A DNA stretch of 51,920 nt from a virus. Positions 4,529 through 10,488 of the stretch are shown piece after piece. The notes below the pieces were generated by a model, which was not told the DNA's origin, made no database searches, and saw only the letters and a list, made by a program, of their open reading frames with translations. Both the position numbers and the translations under genes were made by a program. The stretch covers positions 1-51,920 of IMG/VR virus record IMGVR_UViG_3300025154_000017; one strand, 5' to 3'. Positions within the stretch are counted from its first letter, which is position 1. Every line of letters begins with the position of its first letter.

Positions 4529-5131
4529 TCACCAATCATAAGACCCAGGCAAATGACAAACAAAATACTCCGGTGTAGCAATCTTACCAAATTTTCTTGA
4601 CTTCATCATCAAACTCTGGTTAAAATAATGATCGTGAGCATAACCCCTGTGACCCCAACGTGCGCCTAACTCCCTTTTATGGCAGATATTTGACGTCCCG
4701 TTCTGCCCTAACTTCCTTATGTCACAGTTGCGCTCAACCCAATCGCCACCTGAGTAAATAATGTCATTATAAAACACCCAATCATAATCCTTCAGCCCGT
4801 CAGCGATCTTCTGTAAATGATTTTCTCCCCAATAGTCGTCAATGTCACAATAAATAATGAACTCACCCATTGCTTGTTCAATTCCCGTGTTCCGAGGCGC
4901 ACCGTCCCACATCGGCGCTTTCTTAATCAAAGTAGTCGTTATCCTTTCGTCGGTGAATTGCTTCATCAGGTCCATTGTTAGTTGACAGCCGTCAGCAACG
5001 ACCTGTAATTCAAAGTCTGTAAACGTTTGATCCAATACTGACTGCACTGCACGGACAATCTTTTCTTCACGACGAGAGGCCGCACCTGGATATTGCGACA
5101 ATAGTGACGGCATTATACAACTGAACTTCAT
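4529..5131 (-). CDS. Family 2 glycosyltransferase, 200 aa
   Basis: GT-A fold features: SCIMPSLLS start, QSVLDQTFTDFEL near residue 35, GAPRNTGIEQA near residue 76, and IIYCDIDDYW (DIDD metal motif) near residue 93. First of the three glycosyltransferases after the portal; its start overlaps the portal stop (ATGA), so it is translated with the head genes. Acceptor unknown. Confidence 0.87.
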   Translation of the reverse strand: MKFSCIMPSLLSQYPGAASRREEKIVRAVQSVLDQTFTDFELQVVADGCQLTMDLMKQFTDERITTTLIKKAPMWDGAPRNTGIEQAMGEFIIYCDIDDYWGENHLQKIADGLKDYDWVFYNDIIYSGGDWVERNCDIRKLGQNGTSNICHKRELGARWGHRGYAHDHYFNQSLMMKSRKFGKIATPEYFVCHLPGSYDW

Positions 5132-6930
5132 TCTTCGACTGTTTCAACTCGTTCCTCTTCTGTGAACGTCAACTCCGGTTCCTTTGGCTTGGCCTCTTCC
5201 ATTTGCAAAATATATTCTTCACACTTAGCCTTGACCTTCTCAGTGATCACATCGTCAGCCATGTCATATATCCATACCTCGCTTTCCTGTTCGAGGTCAT
5301 TGAAAATAGATTCCAGATTTGCCCACAAAACAGCGTTGTAATGCGTTGTAAGGTTCTGCGAGATCAATAGCCTCACGTTCTCCTCGCTGTAGCCCCTGAA
5401 CGGGTTGTAGGCGTTCTTAATGCGTATAATCTTCAACTCTTCGGGCCGGTCAGCATAAAGCATCTCGTTAATATCATCTTCGATAGCTGCAATCGTCGAA
5501 GTAGAAGCACCGGCATCTTTTGCTCGTTTGAGTTCATCCATCATGTCGGCCTGAGTTTTGAACTTGAAGTCATCGGGGTATTGGTGTTCGACTATCAATC
5601 CCATGCCTAAGTCAGTAAAAGTAGCAATGTCCGTAACGACAAACTCCCACAAAGTAGAAAGTGCCGAAGCAAAAGGCTTCAATGTGTCGTTCATATTGTC
5701 CTCGGTGATCTTCACCTCGGTTGCCGTATTCGTGAGTTCATTGCGGGTCATCAACTCCTTGTTGAACATCATCAAATAAACCGAAGCCCGTAAACTCTGG
5801 ATGTACTGTTCTTGAAATTTTAATAGTTCAATCGGAGGTGACTTATACACTAATAGCTTTTCAAGATCAATCATCTCCGTTGTGTCATACGGAATATTAA
5901 GCGTGACAACATCCATCGTAGAAGCATGAATTGGTTCCTTGCCCGTTCCGTGACAAGTGCCGCAAGTTTTACCATCAGGCGTCACCCCACCCTTACAATC
6001 AGGGCAAGGATTAACATACCTGAACCGTTGCGGGAATGCAGTCATAGCAGTTGATAAGTCCAGTTCACTGTCGATCTTCAGCGTCTTATTCAGATACGGC
6101 ATCACATCATGAAATACTGAAATATACGTCCTGCCCTGTGTCTGTGAGTCGTACTTAAAGCCGAAGCGACGTGCTGGTATCTTGTCACCTTGCGGTACAA
6201 AGTACGCAACTGTATAATACTTGCCACCGATCTCAATACCGTCAGGGAAGCCGTCGTCTGTGACAAATAGCATCGGTTTATCACGCACCTCAGTAAAGAC
6301 AATCGTATCAGTGCCGAGATAAATAGTGTATTTCGTGCCTTCGTATTCTTTGCCTTCGAGATCAGTCAGTGTGATCGGCAGCTTAACGACCAGGTATTGA
6401 AGAATGTTGTTTTTGAACTCAAGCATTATCGCCTGCTCCGAAGTAGCGATGAACGGATAAGGCTTTGCTTTCTCTTTACGTGCGTCGAACTCGTCAAACT
6501 CAGTTATCAGAAAAGCATTCGGGTCAAGATAGTTATAGTCAACATACGCATACTCAAAGAACTTCTCTAACGAAGCGTCGCCCCAATATTCAGCGATCTT
6601 CAGTTCAAGTTCTGCCTGACGCTTTTCATAGTCGCCTTCAGTCTCCCAGTCGATCTTACGTACTTTGGGTTTCTTACGGACCGCTTTCTGAAACGACAAC
6701 TTCGTCGAGGCCAACGTCGGAGGGATAATTGAATTTGTGATCGTCTTACGCATCTCGAACTCGTCAACTGTTTCACGTGAAACAATCCTGCGAAGCAGAT
6801 CACTTATGCCGTCACCAGAGACCATCTTATAGTATTCATCTGCGAGATCGCACACGCGTTTATAATCTCTGTGGCGGATGTTATCTGTAACGATGCGTCG
6901 CAATTCTTTAAAGCCTTCTATCTTGTCCAT
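5128..6930 (-). CDS. Portal protein
   Basis: 600 residues, directly downstream of the large terminase (3-base gap) and upstream of the MuF-like gene, the standard portal position. The sequence is alternating alpha/beta with a long acidic helical C-terminus, as in portals. Unusually, residues 309-326 contain a DnaJ-like zinc ribbon (CPDC and CGTC, each followed by Gly-rich turns). The portal forms the dodecameric DNA gate at one capsid vertex. Family assignment rests on size, context and general character. Confidence 0.8.
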   Translation of the reverse strand: MDKIEGFKELRRIVTDNIRHRDYKRVCDLADEYYKMVSGDGISDLLRRIVSRETVDEFEMRKTITNSIIPPTLASTKLSFQKAVRKKPKVRKIDWETEGDYEKRQAELELKIAEYWGDASLEKFFEYAYVDYNYLDPNAFLITEFDEFDARKEKAKPYPFIATSEQAIMLEFKNNILQYLVVKLPITLTDLEGKEYEGTKYTIYLGTDTIVFTEVRDKPMLFVTDDGFPDGIEIGGKYYTVAYFVPQGDKIPARRFGFKYDSQTQGRTYISVFHDVMPYLNKTLKIDSELDLSTAMTAFPQRFRYVNPCPDCKGGVTPDGKTCGTCHGTGKEPIHASTMDVVTLNIPYDTTEMIDLEKLLVYKSPPIELLKFQEQYIQSLRASVYLMMFNKELMTRNELTNTATEVKITEDNMNDTLKPFASALSTLWEFVVTDIATFTDLGMGLIVEHQYPDDFKFKTQADMMDELKRAKDAGASTSTIAAIEDDINEMLYADRPEELKIIRIKNAYNPFRGYSEENVRLLISQNLTTHYNAVLWANLESIFNDLEQESEVWIYDMADDVITEKVKAKCEEYILQMEEAKPKEPELTFTEEERVETVEE

Positions 6931-6933
6931 TAT

Positions 6934-9381
6934 CTATTTATAATAACTGTTAAAAACTTCACATAATTGATATTCGCAGTTATGCACAAGAATACCATTT
7001 GCAAAGTATTCATGTTCATCCTCCACGGTTATATCATAAACGGTTTTTTGTCCTCCTGGCTTTTCCCGCACATTGACGAGAGCAGAAAGTAGTTTTGCTC
7101 CATCTATTTGATCTAAACGTGTTTCCGCATAAGGAACATATCCTATCTTCATAATACTTTGTTGCAATACGAGCCAATCGTGTAATTCTCCTATTCTTGC
7201 AACTAATACAGCAGTATTTTGGTCGCCTTCTAAGTTTTGTTTGGAAAACGGCTTTGCATTCTTCGCAAACCGCAGAATACTCTTCACCATATATAGCGTG
7301 TTCAGCATTCTTAATATGCCACGCTCTTCCGTCAGGTGATTTATGCCATTCTGATGCTTTAGGTTGGGCCTTTTCTTGCAATACATCTTTAAGCATCTGC
7401 TTATAAGCATCAGACTTACATTCGTAATGGCTACCCATATGCTCTTTATAAGTAATAAGATTGAGATTTTCAATTTTATTATTGCTAAAATCACCATCAA
7501 TGTGATGTATCGTAAGTCCCTTTTGAATTTGCCCGTTATGCTTTTGCCATATGTACTGATGGAGATAAATCTTTTTCCATATCCCTGTTTCTTTTGTCCA
7601 TCCTTTGAAATAGTTCCGATCACTTGGTCTGTCTGCATTAGGGTATCTGTGAAATTTATACCCATCAATAATAATAGTTTCTCTATCCATGTCTTTTTTA
7701 TTGCAAAGATACTAATAATATTCTTTGCCGTCAGACTTGATACCATAATAAATTGACCACTTGCATAAATTTTATGATCCGGGGTGCAACTTAAGTTACG
7801 ATCACCTACGCTATACTTTTTTACTTCCTTATTATAAAATTTTCGTTTATCTATTACTTTTTTAAATCCCTTTCTTGTCAATACATTATCCCCGACTTTA
7901 ATCTTACTTATAGCCTTATTGCCCTTATCTGTAATAATTATTGTTTCGCCCACAAAACAAGTATCTGACAAATGGCCGTACTTCTGATACCTGTCACCTG
8001 TTTCTTTGTCTGTAACAATGTGTTTATCTTTTGCTCCGTTTATGTCCTGTTTGACGTACATCATATCAGCGACCATCAATTTGCAACTCTCGTCAATCAG
8101 TATTCTTATCGGTAATTTCTCTTCAAAGATACGGTTTATAAAGTCACGGCGTTTAGTAATCGACGGGTTCTGTCGCATCATCCTCGCTGATCCGTTTGTC
8201 AGAAACCTCCTTAATTTGTATTCAATGATCTCGTAATGATGCTTGAACTCTTTGTTCATTGTTGACCGTGCCCTGCCCGATGCATCACCGTAATAGTAAA
8301 TAGCAGATTTATGAGCATTATATCGCATCAGTATTTCTTCACAGACCTCTTCAGTTGAGTTACGAGGGTTTTCAAGTGCGATCTCGTCAATGCAATAGGA
8401 CCACCAAATATCATCCTTGCGCTCAAACTGCCAAATAGAACATGAATTGTAAGGAACGGAGTTTTGGTCAAACGAGATATGCAACGGCTTTGTTTTGTCG
8501 TAGGTACACTTGCCGACGTGTTTAAGGCGGTCAAAGGATGAATAGAACTCTCCCCCGGTTTGAGTGAAAGGGTTCCCGAATACAAGGGCACGGCCACGTT
8601 CCTCTGAGTTGTTGTCTAATATGCTTTGTATATAATTCTCTCCGACATTTTTAACATTGTGATAAGTAGATGATATCACCGCAAACTTATCACCTACTCG
8701 TTTCTCAAAGAACGTTTCACGGGAATATATCTTTGAGTTTATTTCTTCGACGTAGTTTTCTAAATTGAACCACTTCGAAATCCACTCTGTTTTTGCCGGT
8801 GAAGTTGTGATAAAAAGAGGATTGTATTGTTGATCTGGTTTACCCGTATGAGATAATTGGCCATTCACAAGGTACATTCCTTTTTTTCGTAGCCGCCCCA
8901 TAATAATCTCCTTCACGTCGGTCTCATCGGTATCTTTAGTCTCATCTAGGAACGCATAAGATATTTCCTTTCCTTCATGGTTTTTTGCGTTATCCATTGA
9001 GCCAATGAATATAATAGCTCCATTGATAAACGAAATAATGTTATGATAACTCTCAAAGTTATGACCATGCTTTTTAAAATGCTCTGGTGGTGTTTTGCCT
9101 ATAACGTATTGACCCCACGGGGAAGAATCTTTGCTATATTCTATTATGCCTACGGACTTCCAATATTCTCTGATCCTGAAAAGAGTTGCTGTGTTTAGCT
9201 GATCATAAAAATTTGCCCCAACAAAACCCACCGCATCGGGAAACGTTCTGATAAGCTGATATAATTTAATACCGCTTAAATGTGACTTCCCCGATCCAAG
9301 CCCTGCCAAAAATAAGTTTATAGAAGCAGTACTTTTTAATATTGCTTTCTGTGGAGCGGAAACTTCTTGTTCAATTTGCAT
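6934..9381 (-). CDS. Terminase large subunit with in-frame intein
   Basis: The packaging ATPase/nuclease. Walker A GLGSGKS lies at residues 27-33 and a Walker B-like AFLDETKD near residue 145. The nuclease domain has FDQNS and YGDASG segments, and its third acidic site reads GHLSD. Immediately after that Asp and one Thr, a 327-residue intein interrupts the protein (residues 475-801); the C-extein is just 14 residues. The spliced product is 488 residues. ATG 9381 is preferred over an in-frame TTG at 9405; it overlaps the GIY-YIG gene end by 11 bases. Splicing is needed to restore the nuclease site, so intein activity gates packaging. Confidence 0.92.
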   Translation of the reverse strand: MQIEQEVSAPQKAILKSTASINLFLAGLGSGKSHLSGIKLYQLIRTFPDAVGFVGANFYDQLNTATLFRIREYWKSVGIIEYSKDSSPWGQYVIGKTPPEHFKKHGHNFESYHNIISFINGAIIFIGSMDNAKNHEGKEISYAFLDETKDTDETDVKEIIMGRLRKKGMYLVNGQLSHTGKPDQQYNPLFITTSPAKTEWISKWFNLENYVEEINSKIYSRETFFEKRVGDKFAVISSTYHNVKNVGENYIQSILDNNSEERGRALVFGNPFTQTGGEFYSSFDRLKHVGKCTYDKTKPLHISFDQNSVPYNSCSIWQFERKDDIWWSYCIDEIALENPRNSTEEVCEEILMRYNAHKSAIYYYGDASGRARSTMNKEFKHHYEIIEYKLRRFLTNGSARMMRQNPSITKRRDFINRIFEEKLPIRILIDESCKLMVADMMYVKQDINGAKDKHIVTDKETGDRYQKYGHLSDTCFVGETIIITDKGNKAISKIKVGDNVLTRKGFKKVIDKRKFYNKEVKKYSVGDRNLSCTPDHKIYASGQFIMVSSLTAKNIISIFAIKKTWIEKLLLLMGINFTDTLMQTDQVIGTISKDGQKKQGYGKRFISISTYGKSITGKFKRDLRYITLMVILAIIKLKISILLLIKSIWVAITNVSLMLISRCLKMYCKKRPNLKHQNGINHLTEERGILRMLNTLYMVKSILRFAKNAKPFSKQNLEGDQNTAVLVARIGELHDWLVLQQSIMKIGYVPYAETRLDQIDGAKLLSALVNVREKPGGQKTVYDITVEDEHEYFANGILVHNCEYQLCEVFNSYYK
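7034..7690 (-). CDS. HNH homing endonuclease nested in the intein, alternate frame
   Basis: 218 residues, wholly inside the intein and one base out of frame (-1). Residues about 59-83 hold the HNH_3 pattern LTIHHIDGD-SNNKIENLNLI. Two zinc-finger-like CxxC pairs follow (CEECKAVF/CCISC near 140-165 and CSLCGNTF/CSRQC near 185-207). The stop lies within intein block F, so the last finger shares bases with the essential C-terminal splicing segment. ATG 7690 has no Shine-Dalgarno but follows an A-rich run, which suits Bacteroidetes initiation; a lone TATCTTTG at 7711-7704 might be a -7 element. The enzyme would cut intein-less terminase alleles. Confidence 0.88.
   Translation of the reverse strand: MDRETIIIDGYKFHRYPNADRPSDRNYFKGWTKETGIWKKIYLHQYIWQKHNGQIQKGLTIHHIDGDFSNNKIENLNLITYKEHMGSHYECKSDAYKQMLKDVLQEKAQPKASEWHKSPDGRAWHIKNAEHAIYGEEYSAVCEECKAVFQTKLRRRPKYCCISCKNRRITRLARIATKYYEDRICSLCGNTFRSNRWSKTTFCSRQCAGKARRTKNRL
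7693..7699 (-). promoter_or_regulatory. Possible -1 frameshift slippery heptamer A AAA AAG
   Basis: In the intein frame the codons are ATA AAA AAG, giving the heptamer A AAA AAG used for -1 frameshifting in bacterial dnaX. A -1 slip continues as GAC ATG and enters the HNH frame exactly at its start codon. The -1 frame is closed by a TAG at 7714-7712, just upstream. The same A-rich run could instead simply aid initiation at ATG 7690. Confidence 0.4.
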
Positions 9382-10147
9382 AGACCTCAATATATTTTCC
9401 CTCAACTAACTTCATACCTTTCTTCCAATTACGCTGAACTCCCTTCTTCCCCTTATTCCACGGCTTATGGCCGGTTTTTAATCCCTTGTTCCACGGAACA
9501 TAGCCAACCTTCGCCACACTTAATTTAGACTTATGTTCTTCCGTTAATTTTCTTCCTTTTTGTGCCTCACTCATCTTCTTTCTGATCTCTAACGATGGTG
9601 ATTTATGTTTTTTGCCTTTATGTATTCTACTTTGTTTTAATTTTGTTTCTTCGGATGGCCTAATCCCCATGTGAGACTTACTGATTTTTCTCTTAGTTTC
9701 TTCGGATAAACGCTTACCCAGATGTGATCTTCGACCCCTTTCTATTGATTCCGCACTCCGCTTGCGCCCCCTCCTTGAATTACTCATCTTTAATTTTGCT
9801 TCTTCTGAGTGTTTTCTGCCTCGTATTTTTGCAATTTGCTCCTCAGTCTTCTTTATCCCTAAATTGCTACTTGCGGTAGGGGAACAATTAAAATATGGCT
9901 TATAAGCGTCAATATAAAATTGCTCAATAGGGATTAGGTCGCCCCTGTCACACTCACAAATTATATTAAAGGTTAAATCAGATAATTCATATTTATTGAA
10001 GTGCCTTTGAAGTTTTGGAGAATGATGTTTGTTTGATTTCAAATCATTGATGTGAATATTCCACCTTTTTTCGATCATTATTGAATGACCGATATAACAC
10101 CTCTCTGGTTTACGCTTTGACCTGATTATATATACTCCGCAGTGCAT
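9371..10147 (-). CDS. GIY-YIG endonuclease with NUMOD3 repeats, 258 aa
   Basis: The N-terminal domain has GVYIIR and CYIGHS (GIY and YIG motifs), a downstream Arg, and EQFYIDAYKPYFN with the catalytic Glu near residue 96. From about residue 105 it has repeated NUMOD3-type DNA-binding units (KxSEEtKxKxS and similar), ending in Trp-Asn-Lys-Gly units. It sits between small and large terminase genes, a typical site for free-standing homing endonucleases. ATG 10147 overlaps the terminase stop (TGATG); an upstream GTG is also possible. It is a paralogue of the gene at 33092-34009. Confidence 0.92.
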   Translation of the reverse strand: MHCGVYIIRSKRKPERCYIGHSIMIEKRWNIHINDLKSNKHHSPKLQRHFNKYELSDLTFNIICECDRGDLIPIEQFYIDAYKPYFNCSPTASSNLGIKKTEEQIAKIRGRKHSEEAKLKMSNSRRGRKRSAESIERGRRSHLGKRLSEETKRKISKSHMGIRPSEETKLKQSRIHKGKKHKSPSLEIRKKMSEAQKGRKLTEEHKSKLSVAKVGYVPWNKGLKTGHKPWNKGKKGVQRNWKKGMKLVEGKYIEVYAN

Positions 10148-10488
10148 CACTTAATAACTATATCAGGCAGTTCAGGAAATTCCTTAATGCGAATATCAGT
10201 CTCATTCTTTTCTTTCTGTTCAAGGTATTGCTTCCCTAACCACACAAGCATTGTTTTGTCACCTTCCATTGCGACCTCATATTGCTTCTTTCGCAGTAAT
10301 TCTTTGCCTTCTGCTTTCTTTTGTTCGGAAAAAGCCGAATAATCAATATTATTATCGGCCTTACAACGGTTATACAAAGTATCTACTGATATGCCAAACA
10401 TACTCGCAATGCCAACGGCTGAACACTGTGCTTTGATGTGTTCAATAACCACTTCCCAATCTATTATCGCTTTCGGTCTACCTGCCAT
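10147..10488 (-). CDS. Terminase small subunit-like protein
   Basis: 113 residues. Residues 10-50 form a helix-turn-helix (VVIEHIKAQCSAVGIASMFGIS-DTLYNR) like phage small terminases and related DNA-binding proteins, followed by a charged helical stretch. It is directly upstream of GIY-YIG and the large terminase. It would recognise phage DNA and recruit the large subunit. A TAACTTTG element lies at the gene start but lacks a clear -33 partner. Confidence 0.75.
   Translation of the reverse strand: MAGRPKAIIDWEVVIEHIKAQCSAVGIASMFGISVDTLYNRCKADNNIDYSAFSEQKKAEGKELLRKKQYEVAMEGDKTMLVWLGKQYLEQKEKNETDIRIKEFPELPDIVIK

Follow-up and report, generated by a model that had tools for sequence, protein, structure and literature searches.

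A complete intein and a nested HNH gene

Inteins are usually sorted into those that carry a fused endonuclease, those that carry none, and those that are split, with an endonuclease gene in between. The terminase gene of a virus (IMG/VR record IMGVR_UViG_3300025154_000017, positions 1 to 51,920; this whole stretch of 51,920 nucleotides is hereafter the window) raises the question of whether an endonuclease can instead be encoded by the same DNA as a complete intein, in another reading frame. Our answer is that it can: a self-splicing insert in this phage terminase gene carries a second complete gene, in a shifted frame of the same DNA, for a DNA-cutting enzyme by which the insert is probably spread. 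Splicing and cutting are both inferred.

All features of the window described here lie on the minus strand. The open reading frame for the precursor of the large terminase subunit (TerL; 6934..9405, read from 9405 to 6934) encodes N-extein, intein and C-extein as 823 amino acids without an internal stop, and matches Terminase_6N (E 4e-10) and PHROG_2 (E 7e-20). The N-extein (7960..9405) has 482 codons when counted from the mechanical start, but translation may truly begin at an ATG further inside, close to 9381; at its other end is the nuclease motif ...YGHLSDT. The intein (6979..7959) is complete, its 327 codons running from C1 (TGT at 7959) to N327 (AAC at 6979), with Thr59 and His62 (TxxH) and a terminal HN. 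The C-extein, CEYQLCEVFNSYYK plus stop codon (6934..6978), begins with a +1 Cys (TGC, 6978-6976); relatives with an empty site read ...GHLSD[T/G]xDYxL.... The window has every motif expected of inteins of the Cys1 type (C1, T59, H62, H326, N327 and +1 C), and each of these positions is invariant, or close to it, across 62 inteins. Among profiles, TIGR01443 intein_Cterm matches the TerL frame with E 8e-9 and Pfam Intein_splicing with E 4e-8, slightly below its cut-off (33.5 against 35.8), while the N-terminal match to TIGR01445 is weak (19.1 bits against a cut-off of 24.5).

The HNH endonuclease gene (7034..7690, stop included) starts with ATG at phase 2 of the TerL frame, that is, in the -1 frame, and lies entirely within the TerL open reading frame. 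It encodes 218 amino acids with an HNH_3 domain and two CxxC zinc fingers (HNH_3 E 9e-15; PHROG_15471 E 2e-26). The original prediction, of a complete terminase intein with a fully nested, out-of-frame HNH gene and both frames open across it, is thus confirmed by profile matches in both frames and by the absence of TerL-frame stops over 7690-7034. The window does not satisfy the definition of an intein with an in-frame endonuclease domain, the HNH being read in the -1 frame, nor that of a split intein, there being no stop between the halves. An intron reading of the HNH gene was also discarded: Rfam detected no group I or II intron RNA around it and returned only four tRNAs for the window.

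Structure prediction separates the two products. In the AlphaFold2 model of the TerL-frame intein, pLDDT is mostly 91-97 in the splicing halves, the N-terminal one comprising residues 1-88 (7696..7959) and the C-terminal one, delimited by the intein C-terminal model and AlphaFold2, about residues 290-327 (6979..7092; blocks F and G, ending VHN). The linker between them, which is HNH DNA read in the TerL frame (7093..7689), is unstructured, with low pLDDT over most of residues 93-286. Foldseek matched the model to the gp41-1 intein (E 2e-5) and to other inteins, and with the AlphaFold2 core this meets the criterion for a HINT fold. The HNH-frame protein is predicted with a mean pLDDT of 93.9 and, among PDB structures, matches I-HmuI best (E 9e-4). 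It had been claimed that the zinc-finger codons share bases with the C-terminal splicing segment. This is borne out in part: the codons of the last two zinc-finger cysteines (7084-7082 and 7072-7070) share DNA with beta strands that are predicted in the C-terminal half (residues 290-294 and 297-312), but the curated C-terminal motif (residues 307-328) meets only the last HNH codons and the stop.

The surroundings hold further genes. A second endonuclease gene of the homing type, GIY-YIG with NUMOD3 repeats (9371-10150; TIGR01453, E 5e-26), stands directly upstream of TerL, its 3' end overlapping the mechanical TerL start, and the terminase is accordingly flanked and invaded by two unrelated endonucleases. 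Part of the portal protein (5128-6930) resembles the zinc fingers of DnaJ (CPDCKGG...CGTCHGTG, with a weak match to DnaJ_bact), and the portal gene is followed by a glycosyltransferase family 2 gene (4529-5131), within the packaging and structural cluster. The four tRNA genes found by Rfam are clustered at 1067-1396.

Recurrence of the overprinted layout

A tblastn search of annotated phages with the window HNH found relatives within terminase genes. Tetrasphaera phage TJE1, Acinetobacter phage Highwayman, Rhodobacteraceae phage MD07 and a faecal phage each combine an open terminase frame, intein blocks and an HNH at the same phase; the TerL intein of Acinetobacter phage TaPaz, checked as a further case, is not overprinted. 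Viral contigs were scanned with an HNH alignment that was blind to the surrounding frame, and this gave 80 loci. From the scan and the annotated phages together, and not counting the window, 65 loci have the HNH in a stop-free host reading frame with intein N and C blocks on its two sides, and two truncated contigs add further cases. The host frame is HNH+1 in 61 of the 65, HNH+2 in four and the HNH frame itself in none. The four exceptions (L083, L085, L087 and L089) form one side of a single branch in a quick tree, and have the host frame at HNH+2 although shuffling gives some 11 stops there.

In GTDB, sampled at one genome per species, about 20 of 46 loci have the same layout; they include a Thermoplasmatales metagenome-assembled genome (MAG) and, among cultured organisms, Rhizobium lusitanum P1-7 and Beijerinckia mobilis. 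A scan based on the intein found an HNH at -1 and an open host frame in all of its 78 loci (11 on contigs already counted); its query alignment contained the linker and so biased it towards HNH-bearing inteins. On a plasmid of Halobacterium sp. GSL-19 the HNH (E 2e-66) occupies the other frame of a gene annotated only as 'Hint domain-containing protein', and the records of TJE1 and Highwayman likewise annotate the terminase alone, without the HNH. Altogether about 150 distinct loci, in viruses (phages among them) and proviruses of bacteria and archaea and on the haloarchaeal plasmid, share the layout. This total includes near-identical loci and most are metagenomic contigs; isolates are represented by TJE1, Highwayman, R. 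lusitanum P1-7, B. mobilis and Halobacterium sp. GSL-19. What had been presented as a single oddity is therefore a widespread class.

The exteins are nearly all terminases, with more than one insertion site: around the nuclease motif in most and, on our reading, in the Walker B region or close to it in L072 and L140. In the host genes of L069 and L138 the intein with the overprinted HNH is the second one; upstream of it are LAGLIDADG homing endonuclease domains, which apparently belong to an intein read in frame.

Two observations had been named that would overturn the prediction. The first, a related phage with the HNH fused in frame, was found nowhere in the terminase-HNH lineage, neither among some 90 loci ascertained by HNH nor among the 78 ascertained by intein, and no HNH-frame open reading frame contains intein blocks; the cyanophage CL131 intein, a positive control for in-frame HNH, returned its HNH in frame 0 (E 3e-13). 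The second was an indel error. If two indels had shifted an in-frame endonuclease out of frame, an assembly or sequencing artefact could mimic the layout, and single-locus frameshifts do exist (L106, below); nothing specific to the window points this way. The window has 100% identical counterparts in two IMG/VR contigs, each from another sample; L001 spans the whole nested region and L002 its 5' part. Together with some 150 loci at the same phase, the isolates TJE1, Highwayman and Halobacterium sp. GSL-19 among them, and with a depletion of host-frame stops far beyond chance (next section), these leave the artefact a negligible chance, and we reject it.

Two constraints on one stretch of DNA

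If both products are maintained by selection, each frame should bear its mark. In the host frame, C1, the block-B His, the terminal Asn and a +1 Cys, Ser or Thr are each present in 62 of 62 inteins; in the HNH frame, H62/H63, N71, H84 and C142/C145/C160/C164 are invariant in 37 sequences. The openness of the host frame was compared with synonymous shuffles in which the HNH protein and its codon usage were held fixed. For the window, only 7 of 20,000 shuffles keep the TerL frame open (mean 4.9 stops). Across the family, 82 of 82 overprinted HNH genes have no host-frame stop where shuffling leads one to expect 2.15 each; the summed log10 P is about -119, with related genes treated as independent. 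Relatives free of the second constraint show no such depletion in the equivalent frame: split-intein relatives have 6.8 stops against 6.7 in shuffles, and free-standing ones 6.6 against 6.6.

In the overlap, substitutions at the three HNH codon positions stand at 0.28/0.24/0.51, and HNH position 3 is host position 2. Third positions of the HNH thus change fastest, and therefore it is the HNH protein that is conserved while the linker residues drift; only openness is selected within the linker. Its composition is practically that of the shuffles (mean hydropathy -0.19 against -0.21). The linker, which had been described as hydrophobic, is consequently not under selection for that property; the HNH code accounts for its composition. 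The phase bias has an equally simple cause, since in unconstrained relatives the HNH+1 frame contains about 6.6 stops and the HNH+2 frame about 19.

Inferred translation of the HNH

A gene inside another gene must be reached by ribosomes. One route is programmed -1 frameshifting from the TerL frame, which would yield a TerL-IntN-HNH fusion and no separately initiated protein. The HNH is at -1 in nearly all loci, and one codon upstream of its ATG the TerL frame of the window contains a classic slippery heptamer, A_AAA_AAG. Across the family, however, the overlap zone shows no enrichment of such heptamers (0.0042 against 0.0036 elsewhere), and the phase bias is explained more simply by the stop counts given above. 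Moreover, in 86 of 87 nested HNH reading frames a start codon lies close to where the HNH protein begins, with a mean best Shine-Dalgarno energy of -5.37 against -3.52 +/- 0.26 for random NTG codons from the same genes (none of 2000 draws was as low); energies at or below -8 kcal/mol occur in 21% of nested HNHs and 5% of this null. Because starts are nearly always present, and Shine-Dalgarno energies are enriched while heptamers are not, we favor internal initiation, expression of the HNH being itself inferred, and reject frameshifting as most improbable despite the heptamer in the window.

The window's own HNH start lacks a Shine-Dalgarno match. Immediately 5' of its ATG is instead an A-rich stretch, AATAAAAAAGAC (7691..7702), a candidate region for internal initiation. 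In a quick tree the window HNH groups with that of a Prevotellaceae MAG, and a Bacteroidota host for the virus is a plausible inference. That this particular HNH is translated is inferred from the family evidence and from the presumed Bacteroidota-like host.

The nested HNH might also be a relic, decaying or untranslated, of an endonuclease that once stood free or was fused in frame. Decay is the usual fate of homing endonuclease genes, and a few loci (L042, L060 and L063) do have HNH-frame stops within the aligned stretch. A relic would not be expected to keep its catalytic and zinc-finger residues invariant, to concentrate substitutions at its third codon positions or to retain start codons and Shine-Dalgarno sequences, and we give this explanation hardly any credence.

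Probable mobility and the evolution of layouts

If the HNH is a homing endonuclease, then occupied and empty alleles of one site should coexist. Four TerL relatives at 64-77% identity (L098, L100, L102 and L105) have the site empty, and in L099, L101 and L104 the same site is occupied by a different allele; the criterion for a homing endonuclease is therefore met. Element and host gene also differ in their histories: extein identity is 36% where HNH identity is 69% (L091/L092), and 24% where it is 55% (L022/L074).

The HNH could alternatively be a packaging factor that assists the terminase at cos, a role that has been proposed for HK97 gp74 and for the HNHE between TerL and portal in Skunavirus. 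In most of its versions this HNH is found in or beside a terminase, and packaging HNHs near TerL are known (PMC10448857, PMC12724721). A packaging factor should not be missing from the TerL gene of close relatives whose TerL is intact, nor travel with inteins between terminases of 24-36% identity; its location within an intein is the classic homing configuration, and its fold matches I-HmuI. We regard a packaging role as improbable.

We consider it very probable that the element is a mobile intein at the phage TerL nuclease motif whose homing endonuclease is encoded in the -1 frame of the same DNA and not fused to it, and that it belongs to a class of intein architecture, because the same layout occurs in some 150 loci with one phase greatly favored. 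Splicing, HNH expression and cleavage remain inferences. Ribosomes in the TerL frame would make the precursor, from which residues 1-88 and 289-327, folded together as a HINT domain, would excise the intein and restore TerL; this step is predicted from intact splicing residues and the modeled fold. The HNH would be a separate product, from ribosomes that initiate within the TerL mRNA, as start codons and Shine-Dalgarno enrichment across the family suggest. It would then cut intein-free terminase alleles, and repair would copy intein and HNH together, a step inferred from empty sites and from the discordance of gene and intein in the absence of cleavage data. The overlap would be kept by two selections, one conserving the HNH protein and one keeping the TerL frame free of stops, with linker residues free to drift.

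Members of this HNH family are found in three settings: overprinted within a contiguous intein, placed between the two halves of a split one, or standing free next to an intact terminase. The split layout (TerL-IntN, HNH, IntC) is that of Lactobacillus phage CL2 and 15 other relatives. On a quick tree of 119 HNHs, with most branches weakly supported, layout states change 18 times; with the free-standing rows left out, four of these changes link the overprinted and split states. In L056 (2627-3712) an intact TerL is followed by an HNH; the +1 frame of this HNH remains open and has a repeated TerL C-terminal tail at its end, and L119 too has a second copy of this tail after an intact TerL and HNH. 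L056 looks like a fossil, and both loci are possible intermediates between overprinted and free-standing. In a Prevotellaceae provirus (L106, 3924-3957) IntN ends, just before the HNH, in a frame other than that of IntC, which may reflect a frameshift, a split of recent date or an error in sequencing. We tentatively propose, without being able to call it probable, that overprinting is a third stable coupling of intein and endonuclease, reached repeatedly and interconverting with the split and free-standing layouts; that a single host-frame stop could give birth to natural split inteins; and that one phase dominates as that frame of the zinc-finger HNH is nearly open already.

Relation to known systems

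The layout adds to those known for inteins one in which two complete functions lie on the same bases in different frames, unseen by annotation. Overprinting accounts for some apparently large inteins that seem to lack an endonuclease, supplies a natural set of overlapping genes with measurable dual constraint, and provides a path between contiguous and split inteins that can be put to the test.

Fractured genes, in which a free-standing endonuclease lies between split-intein halves, were reportedly described by Dassa et al. in 2009. The 16 split relatives, such as phage CL2, have this form and the same HNH family; their halves are split, whereas the window intein is contiguous and its host frame is free of stops. 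Also known are HNH homing endonucleases that stand free beside the terminase, as is collaborative homing (PMC10448857), and phages PAE1, SN1 and EauM-23 have the same HNH family beside TerL; unlike the window, such HNHs have neither an intein nor an overlapping coding frame. The dCTP deaminase intein of cyanophage CL131, a large intein with an in-frame HNH that was spliced in E. coli (PMC6293099), likewise unites a HINT splicing domain and an HNH_3 endonuclease in one element, but there the endonuclease is a domain of the intein, whereas the window HNH is a separate gene in another frame.

A literature search for inteins with an out-of-frame endonuclease, which did not cover key older papers or most preprints, returned only inserts of the ShiLan type. 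The original remark that no described class of this kind was known holds for overprinted intein endonucleases within that search, but an out-of-frame HNH without an intein has been published. This closest precedent is the insert in the ShiLan methylase, reported in 2025: an HNH in another frame of an uninterrupted host reading frame, in which the authors found no splicing element (PMC11855218). The likeness lies in the HNH gene in another frame and the open host frame; the ShiLan HNH also matches the HNH profile built here (E 7e-8) and has the same relative phase. The window meets the part of the ShiLan description that concerns frame and fails the part that excludes a self-splicing element: the ShiLan insert has no intein splicing motifs, whereas the window has the full set of splicing residues, in a terminase as host gene.
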